Shown piece after piece: positions 10,401-60,219 of a stretch of DNA of 64,000 nt. The notes below the pieces were generated by a model, which did not search any database, was not told the DNA's origin, and worked only from the letters and a program-made list of their open reading frames with translations. The stretch comes from an uncultured Methanobrevibacter sp. (lineage in GTDB: Archaea; Methanobacteriota; Methanobacteria; Methanobacteriales; Methanobacteriaceae): assembly GCF_902784195.1 (NCBI RefSeq), contig NZ_CACZTX010000009.1, forward strand, positions 1-64,000, in the 5' to 3' direction. How positions within the stretch are numbered: the stretch's first letter is position 1; the number at the start of each line of letters is the position of its first letter. The translations under genes and the position numbers were made by a program.

Positions 10401-12020
10401 TTAAAAGTCAATGAAGTATCTTACTACTGTGAAGACACCAAGAGCCAAACTTATTGTAAATCCTATAAAACCAAGCACCGGCATCTCATAAAATCTTGGA
10501 CCTACATCAATCAACATAACAAGAGAAGAACCAATTAAAAGCGCTGCAATAATGATTGCAAGTGAAAGCTGGTTTGCTATCTCACTTATATGCTTAACTT
10601 CAATATTTACGGTGACTTCCCCTTCCTCTATCTTATAGAAGGTTTTTGAAATGAGACTTGGCAATCCTTTCAAGACATGTTCAAATGCAAAGAAACTATT
10701 TTTAGCATTATTGACCATTTTCTTAGGATTATACCTTTGAACTATAAGTTTTCTTGCAATAGGCTTAAGATATTCCACAACATTGATATTTGGATCCAAA
10801 CGTAGTGCAATGTTTTCAACCATTGACAATCCTCTTGCCATTAGTACAAACTCATTTGGAAGCCTTACCTCATATTTCTGCATTAAAAAGAGCAAGTCCT
10901 CTATAATACCATTGAAACGGCTAAGTTCCATACCATAATACTTTGCGAACAAGTCATTTAAATCGCTTTTCAAGATATTGATGTCTGTTTTCTCATTCAG
11001 GATATCCATACGAATCAACTGATTAATCAAACCATCAATATTATGGTCTGAGAAATTAATCATCAATTCAGCCAAATCTTGCCTAAACTCATCATCAAGA
11101 ACACCCATCATTCCAAAATCAATAAAGCATACTGCATTATCATCTGTAATGAAAATATTACCTGGATGAGGGTCTGCATGGAAAAATCCATCGAGGAAAA
11201 TCTGTTTTAAATAAGCGCGAACTATCCTATCTGCAATAAGGATCTTATTATATTTCGGGTCATCTCCAGCAATGACTTCAGATAATTTTACACCTTCAAC
11301 ATATTCCATAGTCAAGACTTTTTCAGTGGAATAGTCAGGATATATTACAGGAACAATAATCTTGTCATTATATTTGAAATTATCATTCAAATGCCTGATA
11401 TTCATCAATTCATTGTCAAAATCCATCTCCTTATGGATAGACCTATCAAATTCATGAATAACTGCAGGAAGATTAAGGTGCTTGAATCCAGTATCAAACC
11501 TATCGGATTCATTTGCAATGAATTTCATTATGCTTAAGTCAGTTTCAACAATATCCTCAATATTAGGCTTTTGCACCTTAACGGCTACTTTCTCACCGCT
11601 ATGCAATTTAGCCACATGAACTTGAGCAATGGAAGCTGTAGCAAGAGATTTTTCAGAAAATTCAACAAAGAACTCATTTAAACTTCCTCCAAGTTGATCT
11701 TCTATCAGTTCCTTAATCTCTTCATAGTTTACAGGTGGATTATCATCATGTAACTGTGAAAGCTCTTCACTAATCTTTTCCCCAACTAAATCAGGCCTTG
11801 AAGCTAACAATTGACCAAATTTAATAAATGTTGTTCCAAGTTCCTGAAGCATTAATCTTAATCTTATAGGAAAATCTTCTTTCAATAATTCCTTATTATC
11901 CGCTTCATTTCTAAATGGACTTATCTTATTACGAGTAGTCTGACCTAAAACCTTATCAAAATCGTATTTCCTTAAGATTTTTATAATCTCATCAAAACGT
12001 GATAATGTTCTTCTTTGCAT
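10401..12020 (-). CDS. UbiB/ABC1-family atypical protein kinase-like membrane protein
   Basis: 539 aa. The central kinase-like fold has the Lys motif KVAVKVQKPNI (about 150), the substrate-blocking KxGQ-like motif IKFGQLLASRP near 70, HADPHPGNIF and CFIDFGMMG (about 285-310). The C-terminus has two hydrophobic helices (about 478-536). Bacterial and mitochondrial homologues support quinone synthesis, but methanogens of this order lack ubiquinone, so a role in isoprenoid lipid handling is only an inference. I choose ATG 12020 over an upstream GTG because AGGTG sits 7 nt before it. Confidence 0.85.
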   Translation of the reverse strand: MQRRTLSRFDEIIKILRKYDFDKVLGQTTRNKISPFRNEADNKELLKEDFPIRLRLMLQELGTTFIKFGQLLASRPDLVGEKISEELSQLHDDNPPVNYEEIKELIEDQLGGSLNEFFVEFSEKSLATASIAQVHVAKLHSGEKVAVKVQKPNIEDIVETDLSIMKFIANESDRFDTGFKHLNLPAVIHEFDRSIHKEMDFDNELMNIRHLNDNFKYNDKIIVPVIYPDYSTEKVLTMEYVEGVKLSEVIAGDDPKYNKILIADRIVRAYLKQIFLDGFFHADPHPGNIFITDDNAVCFIDFGMMGVLDDEFRQDLAELMINFSDHNIDGLINQLIRMDILNEKTDINILKSDLNDLFAKYYGMELSRFNGIIEDLLFLMQKYEVRLPNEFVLMARGLSMVENIALRLDPNINVVEYLKPIARKLIVQRYNPKKMVNNAKNSFFAFEHVLKGLPSLISKTFYKIEEGEVTVNIEVKHISEIANQLSLAIIIAALLIGSSLVMLIDVGPRFYEMPVLGFIGFTISLALGVFTVVRYFIDF

Positions 12021-36033: not shown

Positions 36034-36645
36034 TTAAAGATGGTTTATCTCATTGAAATACAAAATATCATCACATATTACATCAAGCAAGTCTTTATCA
36101 TGACTGACAGCTAGAATACCAATATTATTAGCTTTACAATGCTTAATAAGTGCTTCCCATATCTGCACTTGAGTTACAGCATCAAGCATAGTGCTTATCT
36201 CATCTGCAATGATAAATTTTGTTTGGGGATTTAAAGCCCTTAATATACTGAAACGTTGCAATTCCCCACCAGAAAGTTCACTTGGCCAACGAGTCAACCA
36301 ATTATCTTTTAGACCAAAAGTGTCTTTCAAATTCTGTGGAGGAATCCATGATTCTCTTAATACCTTTTCCATCTTCCATTTAGGATTCATAGTCTTTTCT
36401 GGATGTTGGAAAATTAATTGAATAGGATCATAACCATTTCTATTAACAGAATTACCATCAATAGTTACCTCACCAGCATAATTGCTAATATAACCGGAAA
36501 TAATCTTACATAATGTACTCTTACCACTACCACTATCTCCAATTAATCCGATTATCTGATTACTGTTAAGAGATAACGAAACATCTTTTAATATTGGTTT
36601 CTTCTTATGATATGAAAAAGAAATATTTTCTGCCTTAAGCTCCAT
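36034..36645 (-). CDS. nikE: Opp/Nik-type ABC transporter, second ATPase (NikE-like)
   Basis: 203 aa cytoplasmic ATPase. Walker A GDSGSGKST near 35, signature LSGGELQRFS, Walker B FIIADEISTMLD and H-loop AVSHDKD are intact, so it should hydrolyse ATP. It lacks the C-terminal Cys extension seen in NikD. I start at ATG 36645 (MELKAENISF) after GAGGGGG, six nt upstream; this overlaps the nikD stop by 11 bp. It is the last gene of the importer operon. The nikel-type name is by operon context; oligopeptide or metallophore substrates are possible. Confidence 0.85.
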   Translation of the reverse strand: MELKAENISFSYHKKKPILKDVSLSLNSNQIIGLIGDSGSGKSTLCKIISGYISNYAGEVTIDGNSVNRNGYDPIQLIFQHPEKTMNPKWKMEKVLRESWIPPQNLKDTFGLKDNWLTRWPSELSGGELQRFSILRALNPQTKFIIADEISTMLDAVTQVQIWEALIKHCKANNIGILAVSHDKDLLDVICDDILYFNEINHL

Positions 36646-37642
36646 CATTAGCCCCCTCATCATTAAGTTCTCCTTCAACTACTTCCTCCGAAACAGGCTC
36701 TTCAGGAATAACTTTATCAAAATTAAAGCACCTGATCATTGCACCATCATGTTCAATAAGTTCTGGTTTTGATTGATTACATTTGTCTGAACGTATTGGA
36801 CAATTTTCATAATAAGGGCAACCGGGGACCTCCTCCAATGGCTGAACTCCTTCAGTTAACTTGAAACCATTCTTTGGCAATGCATCGACTAAAGCTTTGG
36901 TATAGGGGTGCAATAAGTTTTCAGAATTCAAGAAGTTTTCCACTTTATTGATTTCAATCACATACCCTGAATAGAATATTGCAATCTTATCTGCTGTCTT
37001 TAAAGCCACATCTATTTCGTGAGTAATCAGTAACACACCTTTACCTTGATCTTTTAATTTTCTAATGTCATGAATTGTCTCTTCAACACTTTTTGCATCA
37101 AGACCTGGAGTAGGTTCATCAGCAATCAATAAATCAGGATCATTCAATAAAGCTGTAGATAATAATACTTTTCTCGCCATTCCACCAGACAACTCAAAAG
37201 GATACAAATCATCTACACTTTCATCCAACCCATATTTACTGAATACTTCCCTTTGTCTTATTTGTTTCTCTTTACGCTCATTATCATCTTTACATTCACC
37301 AACAGCCTGTTGGGAAACTTTCATTAAAGGATCCAAGAAATTTACAGATTGAGGTATTAAGCAGATTTCCTTACCTCTTATTTTTTCTTTCATCTCTTGG
37401 TTTAAAACTTGCCCATTATATTTAACTTCTCCTGTCACATGAGCATTGTAAGGCAAAATACCTAAAATTGTGTGAGCTAAAAGACTTTTGCCTGAACCAC
37501 TGGAACCTAATACAGCTACGATTTCACTTTCACCAATATCAAGTGACAAATCAGAAATTACCTTTAAATCGTGCCTAACTAATCCTTGGACATATTGTGT
37601 AAAAGATATTGATAAATTATTTACTTCTAATAATTTCTCCAT
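36635..37642 (-). CDS. nikD: Opp/Nik-type ABC transporter, first ATPase (NikD-like)
   Basis: 335 aa. Walker A GSSGSGKSL near 45, signature LSGGMARKVL, Walker B LLIADEPTPGLD and H-loop LITHEID are intact. The C-terminus has four Cys in GCPYYENCPIRSDKC and RCFNF, the oligopeptide/Nik ATPase extension that can hold an Fe-S cluster in some homologues. The acidic tail is extra. AGGTGG before ATG 37642 decides the start over an upstream in-frame codon. 13 bp separate it from nikC. Confidence 0.88.
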   Translation of the reverse strand: MEKLLEVNNLSISFTQYVQGLVRHDLKVISDLSLDIGESEIVAVLGSSGSGKSLLAHTILGILPYNAHVTGEVKYNGQVLNQEMKEKIRGKEICLIPQSVNFLDPLMKVSQQAVGECKDDNERKEKQIRQREVFSKYGLDESVDDLYPFELSGGMARKVLLSTALLNDPDLLIADEPTPGLDAKSVEETIHDIRKLKDQGKGVLLITHEIDVALKTADKIAIFYSGYVIEINKVENFLNSENLLHPYTKALVDALPKNGFKLTEGVQPLEEVPGCPYYENCPIRSDKCNQSKPELIEHDGAMIRCFNFDKVIPEEPVSEEVVEGELNDEGANDGA

Positions 37643-37655
37643 AATACCACCTAAT

Positions 37656-38507
37656 CTAGTTATTTGCCTCTCCAGGGTCAAGCAAGCGTTTTAAATTATC
37701 TCCAATAATATCAAACAACAATACTACAATCAATAATGCAAGACCTGGGAAGAATGCTAACCACCAAGCGCCCATTGCAAGATAGGACATTGATTCGGAT
37801 AGGATAATACCAATAGCTGGCTCATGTGGTGATAACCCAAATCCTAAGAATGTTATACTTGCTTCATGCATAATTGCATGAGGGAATACAAGCAAGGTTC
37901 CTACAAATATTTGAGATATTACTAAAGGTAAAATATGCTCCTTTGCAATCCATAACTTGCTTCTACCTAATCTATTGGATAAAGCAACATATTCAGATGT
38001 ATTAATTTGCAATACTTCCGCCCTAAGTACTCTAGTTAAGTTAACCCAGTGCGAAAAAGCTACAGCCATAATTACACCGAATGCACCTTTACCTAATGCA
38101 ATTGATATCATCATAAGCAATAATATATGGGGAATGGATGCAAACAAGTCAATTGCCCAAGAAACAGCCTCATCCAACCATTTATTTGCACTTGCAAGAA
38201 ATGCTAAAATAGTGGCTATTATGCTGGAAATTACTGATGCACCGATACCAATGACAATACTTAAGCTTAAACCTTTTATTGTACGGGTAAACATGTCCCT
38301 TCCCATCCAATCAGTACCAAATGGATGAACCAATGAAGGAGCTTGCATTTTTATGGAAAAGTCTGTTGGTAAATTGGCATTAGTCATCCATCCGCAAATG
38401 AAAATAACCAATAAAATCAGCCCAGTAAGACCAATGGTCAAAAGTGTTTTTTGCCTTAAGTTCAATGAACTGAATAATCCTTTATTGTACCATGGCATCT
38501 CACTCAT
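37656..38507 (-). CDS. nikC: Opp/Nik-type ABC transporter permease (NikC-like)
   Basis: 283 aa with an N-terminal helix and five or six membrane helices of the BPD_transp_1 fold. FGTDWMGRDMFTRTIKG and the EAA-like loop YVALSNRLGRSKLWIAKEHILP identify a DppC/NikC/CntC type permease. Its start region overlaps the nikB stop by 8 bp (ATG at 38507, or 38510), after AGAGGTGAGG. It pairs with NikB to form the membrane channel. Confidence 0.88.
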   Translation of the reverse strand: MSEMPWYNKGLFSSLNLRQKTLLTIGLTGLILLVIFICGWMTNANLPTDFSIKMQAPSLVHPFGTDWMGRDMFTRTIKGLSLSIVIGIGASVISSIIATILAFLASANKWLDEAVSWAIDLFASIPHILLLMMISIALGKGAFGVIMAVAFSHWVNLTRVLRAEVLQINTSEYVALSNRLGRSKLWIAKEHILPLVISQIFVGTLLVFPHAIMHEASITFLGFGLSPHEPAIGIILSESMSYLAMGAWWLAFFPGLALLIVVLLFDIIGDNLKRLLDPGEANN

Positions 38508-39495
38508 CATCCTCACCTCTTAATCTTGGATCAACATATTTATAGATTATATCTGCAATAAGGTTCCCAGTAAATACAAAGATTGCACTGATAATCACAA
38601 TACCAAGCAATAATGGAACATCAGACCTTAAACCAGCAGCGACAGTTGCCTGTCCGATTCCTGGATATGCGAATACTTGTTCTACAAGAATGGTTCCACC
38701 GAACAACTCATTAAATGACAAGAATTGGATGGAAATAGCTGGGAGCAAAATATTTCTTATTCCATGGTTTTTGATTATTCCCCAAAAGCTTTCACCTCTT
38801 GCTTGTGCAAACAAGAAATAATCACTTTTTTTTACTTGAATAAGCTTGTCTCTTGTGAACATTGTTAAGGAAGCTATTCCTACAATACTTAAAGTCACTG
38901 CAGGCAATATCAACCGGTATAACCATTGCCAGAAGGTTACAGTATCAGACAATTGACCAATAGGTACAGAAAGACCTATTGGGAACCAACCCAAGTAAAC
39001 TGAAAATAACATTAACAATACCAACCCTATCCAAAAGGTAGGTGAAGATTGTAATATATAACTGTAGGTTTTAATTGCCTTATCAATCCAAGTACCTTCT
39101 TTAGCACCGGCAAGCACACCTAATCCAAAACCAAAGATTCCGGATATTACCCAAGAAGTTGCCATAAGAGTTAATGAAGCGGTAAATTTCTGTACAATAA
39201 CTTCTGTTACAGGGACTCGATAAATCAATGAAAATCCCATGCTTCCAGTAGCTAAAGTTGAAAGCCAACCAACTACTCTTTCACCTAAAGACAAATTAGT
39301 TCCCCAATATTCTCCCATAATGGCTAATTGCTCTTGACTAACAATCCGTTGTCCTAAATAAGCTCTAACAGGATCAATAGGGGACATTTGTATCATAATA
39401 AAACTGATAGCAGCTATAACGATCAATAAAATTATTAATCTCACTACTTTCAATCCTAAAAATTTAGCTAAATTTTTACTATTAATTTTAATCAA
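38500..39495 (-). CDS. nikB: Opp/Nik-type ABC transporter permease (NikB-like)
   Basis: 331 aa with six predicted membrane helices. QMSPIDPVRAYLGQRIVSQEQ near 35-55 and the EAA loop FLFAQARGESFWGIIKNHG fit DppB/NikB. A TTG start is used in the longest frame; the ribosome-binding site there is poor (ATGGG), and a GTG 17 codons later (after AGGA) is an alternative. 310 bp with repeats separate it from nikA, unusual within an ABC operon. Confidence 0.85.
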   Translation of the reverse strand: MIKINSKNLAKFLGLKVVRLIILLIVIAAISFIMIQMSPIDPVRAYLGQRIVSQEQLAIMGEYWGTNLSLGERVVGWLSTLATGSMGFSLIYRVPVTEVIVQKFTASLTLMATSWVISGIFGFGLGVLAGAKEGTWIDKAIKTYSYILQSSPTFWIGLVLLMLFSVYLGWFPIGLSVPIGQLSDTVTFWQWLYRLILPAVTLSIVGIASLTMFTRDKLIQVKKSDYFLFAQARGESFWGIIKNHGIRNILLPAISIQFLSFNELFGGTILVEQVFAYPGIGQATVAAGLRSDVPLLLGIVIISAIFVFTGNLIADIIYKYVDPRLRGEDDE

Positions 39496-39557
39496 CCCAT
39501 ATAATCTATTAAAAAAATAAGTATGAAAATACTTAAAAATTATAAAAAATGCGTAAT

Positions 39558-39656
39558 AAATAATTAAAAAATTATTTGAAGAATCTTTTAATGAATAATA
39601 AAAAAAATCCTTGATAAAATAATTAAAAAATTATTTAAAGAATCTTTTAAAAGATT
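39558..39656. repeat. 33-bp direct repeat and palindrome between nikA and nikB
   Basis: Two copies of a 33-bp unit (39558-39590 and 39617-39649, one mismatch, offset 59). Each contains AATAATT-AAAA-AATTATT, able to fold into a hairpin. The second runs into a perfect 16-bp palindrome AATCTTTTAAAAGATT (39641-39656). The block lies in the long gap between the binding-protein and permease genes, so it may act as an mRNA end, processing or attenuation signal that gives more NikA than permease. Confidence 0.6.
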
Positions 39657-39805
39657 ACTCAAAAATCTTAAAAAATTCTTTAAATGATTCTAAAAATAAT
39701 TAAAATATCAAAAAATTATTAAAAAATGATTTATTATAAAATAAACCATTTATATTTTAATAATTTTTAATTTAACAATTTCACTTGCATTAAATTTTTA
39801 ACAAT

Positions 39806-41428
39806 TTATGCAGTTTCATTTGTTTCAAGACGTTTCCAGTCGTAGATGTTACCCCAAATATCTCCACCGTGTGGGTAGATAAGGTGAGTGCTGTTGGAAA
39901 TGTCTAAATCATCACTTACAAAGTAAGTGTAGTCCATAGTACCAATCCATAAGAATGAATTGTGGGAAGTAGCTTGTTTTGCAGCTTGCTTCCAAGTACT
40001 GTAGGAAGCATCGGTAGGTTGAGCCATTGCTGTATCAATTAATGCATCTACAGCAGAATCTTTAAGATTACCTGGGTTATCATAACCTACACAAGCTACA
40101 TCTGAACCGTATTGGTGCTCAATTGAGTATGGATCCGCTGAACCGAATCCCCATACAACTCCTTGACTGTATTTATCTGGGTCAATTTCATCCCAACTTG
40201 CACCTTTAGGAGTGATTTCAATACCTAATTCTTTAGCTTGTTCAGCAAGAGTTACTGCAATTGCCTGTCTTTCAACTGCGGATGCTTTGTAGTAAACTGT
40301 GAATTCTGCTTTTTGACCATCTTTTTCTCTGATACCGTCACCGTCAGTGTCTTTCCATCCAGCTTCTTCAAGAATAGCTTTAGCTTGATCTACTTGACCG
40401 TCTTTGTATCCAGCATCAAATGCCCATGGTAATTGGTCAGCCACACCAGTGTAGGATACATTACCGTATCCGTTTAATGCACCATCTATTAACTCTTCTC
40501 TGTCAATACCAATAGCTAAAGCTTGTCTGACAGCAGGGTCTCCAGTTACATTGTTACCGATTGCAACACCATCTTCACTGGTTTTACCTTCATCCATTGT
40601 GGTTGGTAAGGAAACACCACGTACATCAATGGAATCGAAGTATTCCATGTGGTAACCATCGATTTTTTCATCTGCATAGGATACTGCTACTTCAGCAATG
40701 TCCACATCTCCATTTTTAACTGCTGCGAATGCTGCATCAGGGTCAAGGAAGAGGTTAGTAATTTTGTTGAAGTAAGGTTCTTCACCATAGTAATCAGGGT
40801 TTTTCTCTAAGATGAATTGTTGACCTTTGTCCCATTGAGCTAATTTATAAGGTCCAGAACCGATTGGGTTTTGACCATATGTTGCATTGTCATAAGTAGC
40901 TTCTGGAACGATACCCACATCAGTCAATTTATTGATGAATGTGGAATCCGGTTGATCAAGAGTAAAGACTACTTTATCTCCATCTGCTTTAGCTTCTTCC
41001 ATATGGGTTAAGTCTGCACCTTCTCCAAACTCTTTAGCAGTGTTATAGGAGAAAGCCACATCTTTAGCGGTTAATTTGGAACCATCTGTGAATTTAACAT
41101 CATCACGAATAGTTACAGTATATGTTTTCAAATCATCAGATATTTCATAATCTGTTGCCAAGTCATTTACAAATTCGTTGTCAGCATTTCTTTTCAGAAT
41201 TGTACTTTGAATTAATGGGTCTGTTCCGGAATCATGGTATCCCCAACCGTGCATTGGGTCAAACCCGAACTCCGGTTCTTCACCGTGTGCTGCTACACAA
41301 GTGATTAACTCATCAGGAGCATGTTCAGATCCTCCTGTTAAAAAGTCAAACCAGCCTGCAGAAGCAGAACCTACGCTGATAATTGCTATTAATACAATTA
41401 CAGAACCTACTAAAATCTTTCTATCCAT
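39806..41428 (-). CDS. nikA: ABC transporter substrate-binding protein (NikA/CntA/OppA-like)
   Basis: 540 aa SBP_bac_5 protein. A Sec signal peptide (VIVLIAIISVGSASA, ending near 24) has no lipobox Cys, so it is released or held by its N-terminus instead of lipid. DYEISDDLKTYTVTIRDDV, FTDGSKLTAKDVAFSYNTA, GSGPYKLAQWDKG and the C-terminal YFVSDDLDISNS are family blocks. AGGAAA lies before the ATG. Upstream is operator cluster A. In bacteria close families bind nickel-histidine, nickel-metallophore or staphylopine-metal complexes; the nearby nicotianamine-synthase-like gene favours a metallophore here (inference). Confidence 0.88.
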   Translation of the reverse strand: MDRKILVGSVIVLIAIISVGSASAGWFDFLTGGSEHAPDELITCVAAHGEEPEFGFDPMHGWGYHDSGTDPLIQSTILKRNADNEFVNDLATDYEISDDLKTYTVTIRDDVKFTDGSKLTAKDVAFSYNTAKEFGEGADLTHMEEAKADGDKVVFTLDQPDSTFINKLTDVGIVPEATYDNATYGQNPIGSGPYKLAQWDKGQQFILEKNPDYYGEEPYFNKITNLFLDPDAAFAAVKNGDVDIAEVAVSYADEKIDGYHMEYFDSIDVRGVSLPTTMDEGKTSEDGVAIGNNVTGDPAVRQALAIGIDREELIDGALNGYGNVSYTGVADQLPWAFDAGYKDGQVDQAKAILEEAGWKDTDGDGIREKDGQKAEFTVYYKASAVERQAIAVTLAEQAKELGIEITPKGASWDEIDPDKYSQGVVWGFGSADPYSIEHQYGSDVACVGYDNPGNLKDSAVDALIDTAMAQPTDASYSTWKQAAKQATSHNSFLWIGTMDYTYFVSDDLDISNSTHLIYPHGGDIWGNIYDWKRLETNETA

Positions 41429-41469
41429 ATAATTTCCTCGTTAAATTACTTAAAAAATAACATCCTCCA

Positions 41470-41661
41470 GTATTACTATTTTAAACAAAATTCTAAAAAA
41501 GTAATACTATTCATGAAAAAGATATTACAATTATAATTATGATTTTAAAGTATATAAATGTAATACATTATTCTAAAAAAGTATTACTTTATTGTAAAAA
41601 ATTAGTGAAAAAGTAATAAAAAAGTATTAATAAAAATGCTTAAAAGTAAAAAAAGTAATAC
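41470..41661 (-). promoter_or_regulatory. Operator cluster A and promoter of the nik operon
   Basis: Five GTAWTAC sites at 41470, 41501, 41560, 41581 and 41655 (start positions), three within the full 9-bp palindrome AGTAWTACT. GTAATAC-N14-GTATTAC at 41560-41587 is a paired site (centre to centre 21 bp). A minus-strand TTTATATA (41551-41558) is the TATA box, with one base between it and the operator at 41560. Transcription is predicted near 41525, so two sites lie in the leader. The arrangement predicts repression of nikABCDE. Confidence 0.75.
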
Positions 41662-41791
41662 AAAACCAGGTTAAATATAAAAATAATTGAAAAAAAGGGA
41701 AAAATAAGATAAAAAAGCATAAAATAATAATTAATTAATAAAAAAAGAAATTAACATAAAAAAATAATGTAATAGTGAAAAATATGAAAAA

Positions 41792-42184
41792 TTATTCTTT
41801 TAAGTATTCACAGACCTTTTCACCTGCAAATAAGCATACTTCAACACATGGAGATTTGTCATCACCATCTTTTGAAATGTATCCGCATGTTACAGATTCA
41901 TACTTGTCCTTGAATTCATTGAATAACTTTTTGGAAGCGGAAATGATTTGCTTTTCATCTGCACCTAAAAGACCTAAAGCCATTACAGCTCCAGTTACAG
42001 CACCACAGGTCCCTTCAGAGAATGTTCCACCAATTCCTCCAGAGAATCCTTTTGCAAGAAGAGCCAATTCTTCAGTAGGCATACCTGCAACATCACAAAT
42101 TCCCATAAGAGTTGCTTGTGAACAACTGTAATCCTTTCTGTATTCTTCAATTTTCTTTACTACTTCATTTGAATCCAATTCCAT
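41792..42184 (-). CDS. C_GCAxxG_C_C family protein
   Basis: 130 aa. Cys in YSCSQATLMG, GTFSEGTCGAVTGAVMALG, VTCGYISK and SPCVEVCLF match the C_GCAxxG_C_C family, thought to bind metal or act in redox reactions, often beside transport or reductase genes. GAGGGATT precedes the ATG. It lies 268 bp downstream of the P-type ATPase start side... that is, after the ATPase stop, on the same strand, and upstream of the nik operator cluster, so it sits inside the metal island. Function is unproven. Confidence 0.82.
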   Translation of the reverse strand: MELDSNEVVKKIEEYRKDYSCSQATLMGICDVAGMPTEELALLAKGFSGGIGGTFSEGTCGAVTGAVMALGLLGADEKQIISASKKLFNEFKDKYESVTCGYISKDGDDKSPCVEVCLFAGEKVCEYLKE

Positions 42185-42313
42185 AATAATCCCTCACAAT
42201 TAATTTAAATCAAATTTTGAATAATTCGAATTATTTAAAACATTGTTATAGTTAGTATAAACTTCAATATTAATAAGTTTTTATAAATCAATTAAATATA
42301 ATAATTTGGAAAA

Positions 42314-42415
42314 ATAGTAAAAAAAGAAATAAAAAACTATAAAAAAAGAAATAAAAGACTATAAAAAAAGAAAATAAAAAATAGTAAAAAAAGAAATAAA
42401 AAATAGTAAAAAATA
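42314..42415. repeat. A-rich tandem repeat of about 22 bp
   Basis: About 4.5 copies of a 22-23-bp unit (core CTATAAAAAAAGAAATAAAA or TAGTAAAAAAAGAAATAAAA) in the gap between the ATPase stop and the C_GCAxxG gene. Period is close to two helical turns. On the minus strand it is strongly T-rich and can terminate ATPase transcription. Confidence 0.6.
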
Positions 42416-42452
42416 GCTATAAATAAATATTATTTAATAAAAAAGAAAAAGA

Positions 42453-44501
42453 CTAGTTGTGATAGGTTTCACAACTTTGTCTAACCAATGCATGCTTGTG
42501 AGCATGCATATGCTTAATTCCACTTTCTGTTTTGATTTCATCAATTATCTTAATGCCGTCATGAGAATGTGAGTGCTCACCATCGTTGTGGAAATGATAA
42601 TGTGAATGCTCTACATTTTCAGTATCGATTTTCTTAATTGAATCATCAAATTTCCTGTCATACAGCAATGCTGCATTAAGCACTACAAGACATGACCCTG
42701 CATTGTGTACAATAGCTCCAGTAACAGGATTCAACAATCCTAAAACGGAACATACAATAGCTACTGCATTGATTGTCATGGAAATGATAATGTTTGCCTT
42801 GATTGTAAACAAGGTTGAATTTGAAAGCTTTTTAAGATATGGAATCTTGCCAATGTCATCACCTAAGAGTGCAATGTCTGCTGCCTCAATTGCAACATCA
42901 CTTCCAACGGATCCCATTGCTACACTTACATCAGCTGTCTTAAGTGCAGGTGCATCATTTACACCATCACCAATCATACAGACTTTCTTGCCTTCACTTT
43001 TGAGCTTTTCAATCCAATCAAGCTTTTCTTGAGGAAGAAGATTACCATATACCTTTCCAATTCCAACTTGAGAGGCAAAATAATTAGCGGTTTCAGTATT
43101 ATCCCCTGTAAGCAATATGGTTTCAGTTCCTAAATCATGCAAGTTCTCAATCATGTTTTTGGAATCTTCACGTATCACATCAGATAATCCGATCAAACCG
43201 ACTACGCCATCATTCAAAGCAACGATAATTGAAGCCTTACCTTCATGTTTTAACTGGTTTAGTTCAGCATCAACATTAAAATCAATATTATTTTCTGATA
43301 GAAATTTGGAGTTTCCTGCATATACTTGACCATAAGAGTTTTTACAACTTACCCCTTTTCCAGGGACCATCTTAAAGTCTTGTGGTTCTTCAATATCAAT
43401 TTCCGCTTCTTTTGCTTTGTCTACAATAGCTTTAGCCAATGGATGCTCACTTAATTTCTCACAAGAAGCAACTATATTTAAGACATCCATTTCATCTAAA
43501 TCGTCTTTCAAGGAAATAATATCTGAAACTGCTAAATTACCATAAGTTAAAGTACCTGTTTTATCAAATACTAAGGTATTCAATCCACCTAATGTCTCTA
43601 AAGCTTCACCAGATTTAATGAGAACCCCATATTTTGTTGCCTGACCAATAGCTGCCATAATTGCAGTTGGTGTAGCAAGTATCAATGCACATGGACAGAA
43701 CACTACGAGGACTGTCACCCCTCTTTCAATGTTTCCTGTAATGAGCCAAGCTGCAATTGCGATTATCAATGCAACAGGAACAAGCCATGTAGCCCATTTA
43801 TCTGCAATCCTTTGAGTTGGAGCTTGCTTTTCATCAGCTGCCTTTACAAGGTCAATCAATTTTTGAAGTGAAGAGTTTTCACCTAAACTGGTTGCTTTAA
43901 TGTCAATTGCACCATACAAATTCATGGTACCACAGAATACCTCATCCCCTATATCCTTATCAATCGGCAATGATTCACCAGTCATGATAGATTGATCAAG
44001 AGAAGAAGTACCGTTTATAATTTCACCGTCAACAGGTACACTTTCACCAGGAAGAATTCTTAAAGTATCTCCGATTTTAATCTCATCAACGGAAATCATT
44101 TCTTCCTTGCCATCAACAATTCTCCTACCTGTTTGTGGAGTTAAATTAATAAGATTTCTTAAACCTTTTTTAGCTCTTTCAACTGTCCAGTCTTCTAAAA
44201 GAGCACCTAAAGCCATAATCCATGCCACTTCACCTGCTGCAAATATCTCACCAATCAAGAGTGATGCTACCATAGCTATTGCAATAAGAAGTGCAGATGA
44301 AATCCACTTTTCACGGATTAATCTGGTTAAAGCCAATAATAACATTGGAATACCACTTATTATTACCGCACCCCATGCAGGGTTTAGGTAAATTGGAGTG
44401 TCAATTCCAAGTATCATGAAAATAACAGCGATTACGAGAAATATGGCTGAAATAATGGTCATTTTCAAACCAAATAAGAAATCAGTTATTTCATCAATCA
44501 A
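42453..44501 (-). CDS. Heavy-metal P1B-type ATPase with His-rich C-terminus
   Basis: 682 aa. It has an A-domain (MTGESLPIDK), the transmembrane metal motif FCPCALILATPTA, phosphorylation site DKTGTLTYG, SEHPLAKAIV, GDGVNDAPALKTADV, and a late helix with HNAGSCLVVLNAALL. No N-terminal heavy-metal-associated domain is present, but the C-terminal 60 residues hold about 13 His (HSHYHFHNDGEHSHSHDG). Such pumps expel Zn, Ni, Co or similar ions. GTG 44510 overlaps an AAGGTG Shine-Dalgarno site, so I start at TTG 44501. Operator cluster B precedes it, tying it to the nik regulon. The exact metal is not determined. Confidence 0.9.
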   Translation of the reverse strand: MIDEITDFLFGLKMTIISAIFLVIAVIFMILGIDTPIYLNPAWGAVIISGIPMLLLALTRLIREKWISSALLIAIAMVASLLIGEIFAAGEVAWIMALGALLEDWTVERAKKGLRNLINLTPQTGRRIVDGKEEMISVDEIKIGDTLRILPGESVPVDGEIINGTSSLDQSIMTGESLPIDKDIGDEVFCGTMNLYGAIDIKATSLGENSSLQKLIDLVKAADEKQAPTQRIADKWATWLVPVALIIAIAAWLITGNIERGVTVLVVFCPCALILATPTAIMAAIGQATKYGVLIKSGEALETLGGLNTLVFDKTGTLTYGNLAVSDIISLKDDLDEMDVLNIVASCEKLSEHPLAKAIVDKAKEAEIDIEEPQDFKMVPGKGVSCKNSYGQVYAGNSKFLSENNIDFNVDAELNQLKHEGKASIIVALNDGVVGLIGLSDVIREDSKNMIENLHDLGTETILLTGDNTETANYFASQVGIGKVYGNLLPQEKLDWIEKLKSEGKKVCMIGDGVNDAPALKTADVSVAMGSVGSDVAIEAADIALLGDDIGKIPYLKKLSNSTLFTIKANIIISMTINAVAIVCSVLGLLNPVTGAIVHNAGSCLVVLNAALLYDRKFDDSIKKIDTENVEHSHYHFHNDGEHSHSHDGIKIIDEIKTESGIKHMHAHKHALVRQSCETYHN

Positions 44502-44540
44502 TATAGACACCTTCTTTTATACTTATTATTAAAATTTATC

Positions 44541-44736
44541 GTAATATTAAAAAGTATTACTTTTTTTAAGTTTTCATATATTTAGTATTACTTATAATTA
44601 ATATATACAATAGATTATATAAATGTTATTACTTTTTTGTAGTTTTTTGTATGAAAAGTATTACTTTTAGAAAAATTTGTAAAAAAATATAGAAAAAGTA
44701 TTACTTTTTTGCCTATTTTGGTATAAAAAGTATTAC
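44541..44736 (-). promoter_or_regulatory. Operator cluster B and promoter of the P-type ATPase gene
   Basis: AGTATTACT centred near 44557, 44588, 44661, 44701 and 44733 (five full matches), plus the variants GTAATAT at 44541 and GTTATTAC at 44625-44632. A minus-strand TTTATATA (44616-44623) is the TATA box, with one base between it and the 44625 variant, the same geometry as cluster A. Spacings of 31, 32 and 40 bp are near whole helical turns, so several dimers could bind one DNA face. Confidence 0.75.
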
Positions 44737-44879
44737 TCTTAAAAAAATCTAATAAAAAATTAATAAAAATTAATAAAAAAGAGTGTAGAAATTATGAAAA
44801 TTTAAAAAAAAATCATAAAAATAGATATGAATAGAAATAGAAAAAATAAAAAAAGATGTGAAAAATTAAAATTATCTGA

Positions 44880-45701
44880 TTAACTAATCTTCCTAATTAA
44901 TACGGAAGTGTTGTTTGTTTTTCCTCTAGGAAGCAACATGACTTCCTGATGGAATCCTCTTGTATCCTTTTCAGTTACTGGAGAGTAAAGAATGGCTCTC
45001 ATACCAGTATAGGTCCTGTAAAGTACAGGAGTCTTCTCGTCAACAACATCCCAAACATTTGCAAATACCCTGTCCTTAGGTTCAGCAAATGCTGCAATCA
45101 TCAAGATGTCATAATCCAAGTCTGCAATGGTCTTTTCATTACCTGTTATAATCTCAATTCCTTCATCAAGGTCTAAACGTTTTAATACTTTTCTTGACAA
45201 TTCAGCAACATCAGGATCTTGTTCAATACCAATACATTTGCATCCAGTTACCATATTAAACATGATTATTGTTAATGGCAAAGGACCGCTTCCTAAGAAT
45301 ACAAAAGTCTTGTTTTCATTGAATTTAGCCAATTGCATCTCATTTTCAATAAGGCCAATATACCTGTCATAAAAATGGAATGAATCCAAAACAGCTTTAG
45401 GATCATCAGATTCCAATATCTTCATAGCATTTTCACGTTCCAATCTTGCACCGATATAAACATAGAACTTACGAATCAACTGCAATGCCTTATTCATTTT
45501 CTCATCATCAAGAATATGCTTTGCAGAGTCAAAGTCTATTTCTTTATCATGGGCAATGACTTCAATATCATCCAAAATCTTTGTAATCTCCTCAATGTCT
45601 GTGCCATCTAAAGCAGAAAGCCCCTCGTTGTCTAAGTCCCCATAACTTGAAAGCTTATTTGCAATCTCTTCAATTGTTCCCCAATATTTATAGCAACTCA
45701 T
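44880..45701 (-). CDS. Nicotianamine synthase-like (archaeal NAS family) protein
   Basis: 273 aa. It has the SAM-binding motif FLGSGPLPLTIIMF near 138 and the conserved IGARLERENAMKIL and FYDRYIGLIENEMQ segments, which in the archaeal enzyme of Methanothermobacter carry the active-site Glu and Tyr. That enzyme condenses SAM-derived aminocarboxypropyl units with glutamate to thermonicotianamine, a metal chelator. The start is ATG 45701, four nt after GTGAT; the TTG 45713 frame lacks a site. It lies 148 bp downstream of GNAT and upstream of the metal ATPase on the same strand. I infer a metallophore made for the nik importer. Product is untested. Confidence 0.85.
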   Translation of the reverse strand: MSCYKYWGTIEEIANKLSSYGDLDNEGLSALDGTDIEEITKILDDIEVIAHDKEIDFDSAKHILDDEKMNKALQLIRKFYVYIGARLERENAMKILESDDPKAVLDSFHFYDRYIGLIENEMQLAKFNENKTFVFLGSGPLPLTIIMFNMVTGCKCIGIEQDPDVAELSRKVLKRLDLDEGIEIITGNEKTIADLDYDILMIAAFAEPKDRVFANVWDVVDEKTPVLYRTYTGMRAILYSPVTEKDTRGFHQEVMLLPRGKTNNTSVLIRKIS

Positions 45702-45849
45702 TTTATCACACAAAAAGTCTTTAAAAAAAAAATATTTTTATCCCTAAGTTTATTTTTTAATTTTATATAAAAAAATGTAAAATTAAATTTAATATATACT
45801 TTATATTAAAGAATATATAAATTTTAAATTAAAATTAATAAAATAAATT

Positions 45850-46368
45850 TTATTTACTTGATAAATTCTTTACCATATGAACTGTCTGGAGCTCATTATT
45901 TGTATCCCAAGTTACATTGAATCCCACCTTTTTCCAAAAGCTAAATCCAGCTTCAAGATTCTTATGGGTATGCAAATAAATCTCGTTGAAGTTATTTTCA
46001 CAGCAGAATTTTTCAACAGCATTATACAACTGTGTAGCCAATCCACAACGCCTATAATACTTATCTACAAAGAGTCTCCAAATGCTTGCTGTAGATTCCT
46101 TGGAGTATAAGTCCTGAAATTCCATAAAGTTCTTATCATACTGCCTAACCGCTATGGTAGCAATGATTCTTCCATTGCCACTATCCTCAACATAAAACAG
46201 ACTATTTTTCTTGGAATCGATATAATACTTATTCAAGTCTATTATGTCCTTATGCCATGATGGAATGTAACCATAGCCATATTCAGACCTTATTTGGGAA
46301 AACAGGAAATTTCTCACCCTAATCTTTGTATCACAATCATCAGACAATTGATTTATGGTAAAATTCAT
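45850..46368 (-). CDS. GNAT-family N-acetyltransferase
   Basis: 172 aa. The acetyl-CoA fold is seen in IIATIAVRQYD, SIWRLFVDKYYRRCGLATQLYNAVE (the Q/RxxGxG/A-like loop is RRCGLA) and LHTHKNLEAGFSFWKKVGF. GTGATC precedes the ATG. It is the first gene after operator cluster C and is followed by the nicotianamine-synthase-like gene, so it may acetylate the metallophore or a precursor amine. Other GNAT substrates are equally possible by sequence alone. Confidence 0.82.
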   Translation of the reverse strand: MNFTINQLSDDCDTKIRVRNFLFSQIRSEYGYGYIPSWHKDIIDLNKYYIDSKKNSLFYVEDSGNGRIIATIAVRQYDKNFMEFQDLYSKESTASIWRLFVDKYYRRCGLATQLYNAVEKFCCENNFNEIYLHTHKNLEAGFSFWKKVGFNVTWDTNNELQTVHMVKNLSSK

Positions 46369-46443
46369 TTGATCACTTTAATCATTTTTAAGAATAATTA
46401 ATATAACTCATAAATAAATTAAAAAAAAATAAAAAATCAAAAA

Positions 46444-46675
46444 GTAATACTTATTATGAAAAAAATATTATATTAATACTTTATATTTAATAATTATGAT
46501 TTAATATATAAAAATATTTCTAAAAAAAGTAATACCAAATAGCTTATTTTAGGTAAATAAGTAATAATTATTACTAAAATCCATTTTACTTATATATTAA
46601 GTAATAATTTTCAATTTAAAAAAGTATTACTCTTTAGTATTACAAAAGAAGTAAAAATAGATAGAATAGTAATAC
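46444..46675 (-). promoter_or_regulatory. Operator cluster C and promoter of the GNAT/nicotianamine-synthase-like unit
   Basis: GTAWTAC sites at 46444, 46529, 46624, 46637 and 46669 (start positions), three inside AGTAWTACT, plus a perfect 16-bp palindrome AGTAATAATTATTACT at 46560-46575. A minus-strand TTTATATA lies at 46505-46512. The 13 bp AAATCATAATTAT follow the TATA box, as in cluster A. Sites lie both upstream and downstream of the box. Confidence 0.7.
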
Positions 46676-58686: not shown

Positions 58687-58693
58687 GTAATAC
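58687..58693 (-). promoter_or_regulatory. Single AGTAATACT site upstream of DUF354
   Basis: AGTAATACT at 58686-58694, same palindrome as clusters A-C, 29 bp from the DUF354 start. One site in AT-rich DNA could be chance. Confidence 0.35.
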
Positions 58694-58832: not shown

Positions 58833-59573
58833 TTAATGATGATGGTCATGACTATGGCCATGCTCATGTTCATGACTGTGGTCGTGTTCATGATCATGGT
58901 CATGATGGTGATGTTCAGCAGCGTGTGCTTTAGCATCTTTAATAGCTTCAATCACTTCATCTAATCCTTTACCTTCTTTTAAGCTGGTAGTGATGACTTT
59001 AACATCCGGATTAAGTTTTTTAGCATCAGCAACCATCTTATCAGTGCTTGCACCGACAGCATCAGCCAAATCAATCTTATTGATGATGATTAAGTCAGAA
59101 TCCTTGAAAATGTAAGGGTGTTTCTCTACTGTATCATCACCTTCAGTAACACTGACAACAACAATTCTCATATGAGAACCTAACTGGAAGTCAACAGGGC
59201 AGATTAAATTACCTACGTTTTCAATGAAAAGGTAATCGATATCATCAAGAGGCAAGTCACCTAAACCATGACTGACCAAATGTGCATCCAAGTGACATTC
59301 AGTACCAGTGTTCAATCCGACAACAGGTGCATTGTGTGATTTGATCCTATCTGCATCAAAATCACTGATGATATCTCCTGCGAGTACACCAACTTTTTCA
59401 TCAAGATTATCAATTAAGTCTTCAATAAGAGCAGTTTTACCAGATCCAATAGCTCCTACGAAGTCTATACAAAATATATCGTGGTCTTCCAATAAATGTA
59501 AATTCTTATGTGCTAATCTGTCATTAGCATCCATAATATTCTTTGCTATCTCTACATCTGCAATCTTATGCAT
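58833..59573 (-). CDS. hypB: Hydrogenase nickel-incorporation GTPase HypB
   Basis: 246 aa SIMIBI GTPase that delivers nickel to [NiFe]-hydrogenases. P-loop GAIGSGKTALIEDL near 40, the D-x-D/metal region with ECHLDAHLVSHGL, and NKIDLADAVG identify it. The last 25 residues are His/Asp/Glu-rich (HHHHDHDHEHDHSHEHEHGH), a nickel store. ATG 59573 (MHKIADVEIA) is used after GGTGA; a TTG frame at 59588 overlaps that site. It lies 133 bp downstream of hypA. Confidence 0.95.
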   Translation of the reverse strand: MHKIADVEIAKNIMDANDRLAHKNLHLLEDHDIFCIDFVGAIGSGKTALIEDLIDNLDEKVGVLAGDIISDFDADRIKSHNAPVVGLNTGTECHLDAHLVSHGLGDLPLDDIDYLFIENVGNLICPVDFQLGSHMRIVVVSVTEGDDTVEKHPYIFKDSDLIIINKIDLADAVGASTDKMVADAKKLNPDVKVITTSLKEGKGLDEVIEAIKDAKAHAAEHHHHDHDHEHDHSHEHEHGHSHDHHH

Positions 59574-59721
59574 ATGATTCACCTTCAAAACATATAATTT
59601 TATAATAAGTTTAATAATTTTAAAAATTTGGACAATATTTTTAATAGTTTATCAAAAAAGTATAAGAATTATCAAAAGACATATTAATTATTTCAATAGA
59701 ATTTTCTATTGTCATTTTTAG

Positions 59722-60105
59722 CTAATTTTCATCATCCTCTTTTTCAATACTAATGCTTCTAACGGTAATGTCTTTACCATTTATAACTTGAACCCTATGA
59801 CTTTCACATTCAGGGCATAAAATCATAGGAGCATAATGATCGCTGTCATCAACATTACCTATACCTTCAAAGCCACAATTATGACATTTAATTTCAACAT
59901 CAATGGTATTAATGATCATCTTGGCATTTTTAGTTAATTCTTCACCTTCAAGCATAACGCCAAGCATAAATTTCAATTGTTCTGGATTTAACATAGCCAA
60001 CTTCCCAATTTCAATTACCATTTCAGTAACTTCAATTGCATCATTAGCTTGTGCTGTTTCTAAAACTGTGTTGAAAATCCCTTGAGCCATAGCAAATTCG
60101 TGCAT
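59722..60105 (-). CDS. hypA: Hydrogenase nickel metallochaperone HypA
   Basis: 127 aa. MHEFAMAQGIFNTVL carries the nickel ligand His2; the Zn site is CHNCGFEG with CPECES near 100. It hands nickel to HypB. GGAGATATGAA precedes the ATG. A GTAATAC site lies about 110 bp upstream. Same strand as hypB. Confidence 0.96.
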   Translation of the reverse strand: MHEFAMAQGIFNTVLETAQANDAIEVTEMVIEIGKLAMLNPEQLKFMLGVMLEGEELTKNAKMIINTIDVEIKCHNCGFEGIGNVDDSDHYAPMILCPECESHRVQVINGKDITVRSISIEKEDDEN

Positions 60106-60212: not shown

Positions 60213-60219
60213 GTAATAC
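60213..60219 (-). promoter_or_regulatory. Single AGTAATACT site upstream of hypA
   Basis: AGTAATACT at 60212-60220, identical to the cluster A-C motif, with a minus-strand TATA-like box (TTTTATATTATATT, about 60155-60170) about 43 bp downstream of it. Its position in front of a nickel chaperone gene supports a nickel link to the regulon, but it is a single copy. Confidence 0.5.

Follow-up and report, generated by a model that had tools for sequence, protein, structure and literature searches.

Clustered copies of the palindrome AGTAWTACT very likely mark a single nickel-related regulon in this methanogen, and the palindrome is likely to be the half-site of the nickel regulator NikR in Methanobacteriales, with two half-sites making up an operator. 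The window analyzed here, a stretch of 64,000 nucleotides, belongs to a draft genome of 2.05 Mb whose McrB is 98-100% identical to that of rumen Methanobrevibacter, an M. olleyae assembly among them. It contained 20 copies of the core GTAWTAC compared with 5.8 expected. An earlier note on this DNA had counted 15 of these, 11 being the full AGTAWTACT, in the intergenic regions upstream of nikA, a P-type ATPase gene (P-ATPase) and a GNAT gene; our count returned the same numbers, with five GTAWTAC in each region (sites at 41470-41661, 44554-44736 and 46444-46675, respectively). The chance expectation in that note, less than one copy per region, was borne out by 2000 dinucleotide shuffles of the three regions (363, 369 and 454 bp; 14-15% GC), which gave 0.14 GTAWTAC and 0.043 AGTAWTACT for the regions summed, with maxima of 3 and 2, respectively. 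Extending the count to the whole genome, as the note had suggested, revealed no gross excess of AGTAWTACT (57 sites versus 52 for a reversed control word), and the signal is thus one of placement, not count. Sites were instead concentrated in intergenic DNA: 46 of the 53 sites in the 313 kb of genome read were intergenic, at a density of 0.66 per kb compared with 0.03 per kb in coding DNA, and control words had no intergenic bias in the same 313 kb; because these stretches were picked around sites the AGTAWTACT density is inflated, but the contrast with the controls is still fair. Pairs of AGTAWTACT within 40 bp numbered 16 genome-wide, compared with 1-3 for the control.

The three clusters in the window surround putative promoters in a similar way. 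All three TATA-like boxes were read in the sequence, by eye, on the minus strand as TTTATATA. The nikA box (41551-41558) lies between two candidate operator pairs, AGTATTACT plus AGTAATACT on its gene side, 31 bp apart centre to centre (41470-41507), and GTAATAC-N14-GTATTAC, 21 bp centre to centre and one base from the box (41560-41587); a fifth GTAATAC is found at 41655-41661. The earlier note had taken the N14 pair as NikR-type, and its 21-bp spacing is correct for this, but its architecture is untypical here, as exact pairs are mostly 31-33 bp apart. The transporter genes (36034-41428, minus strand) encode a peptide/nickel-type ABC system with a solute-binding protein (39806-41428), two permeases and two ATPases. 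Pfam places the 'nikA' product among the family 5 solute-binding proteins (SBP_bac_5); NikA was its best NCBIfam match, but at 132 bits compared with a cut-off of 393, so that nickel is a presumed substrate of the transporter. At the P-ATPase and GNAT-NAS promoters, as at nikA, sites flank the TATA box on both sides. The P-ATPase box (44616-44623) has a candidate operator pair with 31-bp spacing on its gene side (44554-44591), a single AGTATTACT upstream (44658-44664) and a distal candidate pair with 32-bp spacing (44698-44736); the genes are those for a heavy-metal P-type ATPase (42453-44510) and a C_GCAxxG_C_C protein (41792-42184), together 41792-44510 on the minus strand (Pfam/NCBIfam). 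The GNAT-NAS box (46505-46512) has AGTAATACT on its gene side (46444-46450, with a 5/7 partner at +21), GTAATAC immediately upstream (46529-46535) and three distal sites with spacings of 13 and 32 bp (46624-46675); here the genes encode a GNAT acetyltransferase (45850-46368) and a nicotianamine-synthase (NAS)-family protein (44880-45713), together 44880-46368 on the minus strand (Pfam).

The adjoining NAS-family enzyme, GNAT, P-ATPase and NikA/CntA-like transporter (39806-46368) resemble a metallophore system. Among the parts of a Cnt-like system, the NAS domain was present (Pfam), the binding protein scored 101 bits compared with a CntA cut-off of 800, and no opine dehydrogenase was identified among the ORFs listed near the NAS gene. 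NAS was present in 19 of the 27 genomes tested. In one Methanothermobacter-like genome (G010, C1:992928-993718) the NAS gene consists of two overlapping frame pieces with a stop, and a 32-bp site pair lies upstream.

Two single full palindromes in the window had been proposed as further members of the regulon. The AGTAATACT upstream of hypAB (60213-60219) has a 5/7 partner at 22 bp and is a plausible site; hypA (59722-60105) scored above its NCBIfam cut-off and hypB (58833-59588) was assigned from its translation, the two spanning 58833-60105 on the minus strand. The AGTAATACT beside the DUF354 start codon (58687-58693) is a doubtful operator, because it abuts the start codon and leaves no promoter space. 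The regulon also extends well beyond the window, as cbiMN, cbiQ, cfbA, mcr and frhA bear sites too. Outside the window, clusters were identified upstream of cbiMN (7 sites), cbiQ (3), cfbA (two sites with 31-bp spacing) and mcrB (3); frhA has a single site nearby, and others lie singly in the interval separating a second cbiM from hypC and in front of a cbiO-like ATPase gene. FrhA, McrB, CfbA, HypA, HypC and CbiM scored above NCBIfam cut-offs, and CbiM, CbiQ and NAS were target families confirmed by Pfam. Nickel uptake and nickel-enzyme genes are represented among the targets by cbiM, cbiQ, hypA, hypC, cfbA, mcrB and frhA. By our own assessment, about half of the two dozen loci with sites are related to nickel or cobalt; sites without a nickel link occur at genes for a zinc-ribbon protein and a DUF4013 protein, 560 bp from an MFS transporter gene, in the coaBC-flpA gap and in a prophage. 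The CfbA protein (L035:3067-4050) is of double length and His-rich, with two chelatase-like halves; a single half is found in many other genera.

Two further settings of the motif were observed outside the window. A geneless gap of 1.45 kb (L020:8333-9786; C1:308332-309785; L376-L383) carries five sites and a 200-bp element whose conservation extends over nine genomes of the genus; the element contains an exact TTACACTTGAAA and an invariant hairpin. We take TTACACTTGAAA to be the Methanothermobacter Cdc6-binding (ORB-like) box; it is clustered eight-fold at one place in G010. No tRNA or Rfam RNA was found in the five-site gap and the 200-bp element had almost no covariation; it may be a replication element or a small RNA. 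Four of the eight TTACACTTGAAA boxes in the genome lie within ~420 bp of a GTAWTAC (box/site at C10:8527/8946, C14:13617/14018, C14:15518/15295 and C1:309245/309055), which may be chance. In the prophage (L016:6132-6329, 11492-11510; L275:7834-7874) there are a 32-bp site pair and also a close dyad; a 96% identical IMG/VR provirus with taxon prefix 646311943, presumably M. ruminantium M1, has kept both. Among the matches listed in the IMG/VR pair scan many had codon-multiple lengths, and the scan was informative only for one Methanobrevibacter prophage.

The motif also recurs upstream of orthologous operons in relatives, a point on which the earlier note had staked its claim. Sites upstream of cbiM were found in 25 of 27 genomes from three families, which argues for one ancient metal regulon. 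Across the 27 genomes a 32- or 33-bp pair recurs upstream of cbiM, and in about a dozen of them the promoter-proximal site ends 10-11 nt short of TTTATA (TATA box). Pairs of the form AGTAWTAC-N1-30-GTAWTACT were present in 134 of 149 genomes of the order, with the control mostly zero; they were sparser in two thermophilic families (f2 and f3) and some genera. Upstream of mcrB, a full palindrome was located at -228 to -237 in many Methanobrevibacter and in none of the other orders sampled. The cfbA and NAS sites were conserved more narrowly than those of cbiM. Taken together, the clustering, the target set and the conservation of the cbiM sites uphold the earlier reading of one metal-related regulon.

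Examination of the spacing between sites revealed a clear preference. At the relatives' loci, 69 of 198 close pairs of exact sites were spaced by 31-33 bp, compared with 2 at 20-22 bp, and control words gave at most one close pair at the same spacings. When isolated full palindromes in AT-rich DNA were searched for a weak partner (at least 5/7 matches; mean background 5.5%), 23% had one at exactly 21 bp, 16% at 32 bp and 11% at 43 bp; partner distances therefore follow steps of one helical turn (11, 21, 32, 43). Where the spacing is 21 bp, a strong half-site is mainly combined with a weak one. No weak half-site was found at 21 bp inside or outside the strong 32-bp pairs, which speaks against a 21-bp reading of these pairs, and the two arrangements, strong plus weak at 21 bp and strong plus strong at 32 bp, look like alternatives. 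With respect to the promoter, the cfbA TATA box, like the others read by eye, is followed by both sites just downstream. The positions at nikA, P-ATPase, GNAT-NAS and cfbA suit repression. A TATA box between paired sites was not a general rule; other boxes were located beside a pair or upstream of it. At cbiM, the distal pair directly precedes the BRE/TATA region and more sites lie in the presumed leader, with ~150-157 bp between the distal and proximal groups in most genomes from several genera; looping between the groups is possible.

The earlier note had suggested NikR or another metal sensor as the regulator, and a search of the rest of the genome identified one nikR gene (C1:156540-157040; L036:6541-7041). 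Its product has NikR_C (1.7e-31) and RHH_1 (6.6e-7) domains and is the only RHH_1 protein that a profile search detected in the genome; its nearest solved protein is P. horikoshii NikR. Alignment to 2bj1, and also to 20 relatives, revealed that the four nickel ligands (QH...HIHM...C) are kept. The predicted DNA-reading strand, RISMSLP, is invariant across the order and shares the R-S-S pattern with the NikR proteins of H. pylori (RFSVSL) and P. horikoshii (RFSISI). As for the half-site, its TAWTA core equals an H. pylori NikR pentamer, and GTATTAC matches the deltaproteobacterial GTGTTAC at 6 of 7 positions. On the strength of this gene, its ligands and the half-site likeness, NikR is the best of the candidates suggested and probably reads AGTAWTACT, a prediction made from sequence. 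NikR_C was detected in 88 of 90 good genomes of the order, so its co-occurrence with sites has little power. One genus (g13) has NikR and few sites, two incomplete genomes (G101 and G128) have pairs and no detected nikR, and no DNA-reading residues of NikR were changed in site-poor genera. Autoregulation was not indicated, as there is no site upstream of nikR. The dominant 31-33 bp spacing matches no characterized NikR operator, and a repressor of uptake would not, on the simplest view, be expected to control an export-type P-type ATPase.

We infer NikR as the binder, a three-turn binding mode and the direction of regulation, as follows. The NikR tetramer would use each of its ribbon-helix-helix dimers to contact one palindrome, and an operator would comprise two half-sites. 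A strong half-site would be joined either by a weak one two turns away (21 bp) or by a second strong one at three turns (31-33 bp), with several operators piled around the TATA box at high-copy promoters. When nickel is replete, Ni-NikR would most likely sit on operators that adjoin the TATA box or overlap the start site, and this occupancy would turn off uptake and metallophore-like functions, namely the nik-type ABC transporter, the P-ATPase operon, GNAT-NAS, cbiMN and cbiQ. Sites at mcr, frh, hyp and cfbA would couple nickel use to supply, and the sign may vary by promoter. The mcr and F430 genes are probable targets of the regulon. We propose only tentatively that NikR of Methanobacteriales reads ~32-bp palindrome operators and that nickel supply thereby exerts direct control over the mcr operon and the gene of the F430 nickelochelatase.

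It is unlikely that the sites belong instead to some other metal sensor, such as one for cobalt from another family, whose dimer would bind one palindrome, with the pairs reflecting cooperative dimers. One dimer needs no more than a 9-bp perfect palindrome, CbiM/CbiQ/CbiO are able to carry cobalt besides nickel, the prevailing spacing is not NikR-like and nikR has no site of its own; however, HypA, Frh, Mcr and CfbA have strictly nickel functions, the weak partner at 21 bp is a NikR signature, and the half-site core is identical to the H. pylori pentamer. It is very improbable that the palindromes reflect some structural or chromosomal property of AT-rich DNA, for instance histone positioning or elements linked to replication: the sites do lie in DNA of 14-18% GC, one five-site array adjoins the conserved element that bears the ORB-like box, and a handful of sites are in a prophage or near nickel-unrelated genes, but shuffling identical DNA yields ~0.1 site, reversed control words do not cluster, and the sites track nickel genes at a TATA-box distance that is fixed across genera.

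Regulation by NikR would matter because nickel limits methanogenesis, and the regulon would take in the methane-forming enzyme and its cofactor. One searchable motif yields a testable regulon across the order that holds the main gut and rumen methanogens, and the three-turn half-site spacing poses a well-defined structural problem in the NikR family. In the open-access literature searched, we found no operator or target set of a nickel regulator in hydrogenotrophic methanogens and no description of the AGTAWTACT motif; an archaeal NikR motif may have been described before, in older work on nickel/cobalt transporter regulons. Relative to the literature searched, what is new is the spacing of three turns and the presence of mcr and cfbA in the regulon.

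Among known systems, E. coli NikR binds GTATGA-N16-TCATAC. The predicted system resembles it in a Ni-dependent RHH/ACT tetramer and, in its strong-plus-weak arrangement, in two half-sites about two turns apart, and differs in half-site sequence and symmetry and in that E. coli nikABCDE has a single operator. H. pylori NikR recognizes the pentamers TRTTA and TAWTA, 20 nt apart centre to centre (PMC5385501); shared features are an RHH nickel regulator, half-sites of the TRTTA/TAWTA type, a two-turn spacing that here is mainly that of weak partners, and the joint control, predicted here, of nickel uptake and nickel enzymes (PMC5385501). Unlike in H. pylori, the GTAWTAC palindromes are perfect, mostly in three-turn pairs, and grouped in arrays of several sites about archaeal TATA boxes; nikR lacks a site, and the probable targets include mcr and F430 genes. 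Deltaproteobacterial NikR sites, GTGTTAC-N13/14-GTAACAC, have a half-site one base of seven apart from ours and lie upstream of nikMNQO/cbiMNQO-type transporters, as sites do here, and their spacing corresponds to the N14 pair at 41560-41587 (PMC545781); in contrast to their one site per promoter, exact N14 pairs are rare here and N24-26 prevails. In Methanothermobacter, two reports describe nickel-regulated frh transcription (M. marburgensis), a NikR homologue that rises under nickel limitation, and annotated NikR paralogues (PMC3087415, PMC12350162). Methanothermobacter belongs to the same order, and the present motif would supply an operator and a target set for its nickel response.
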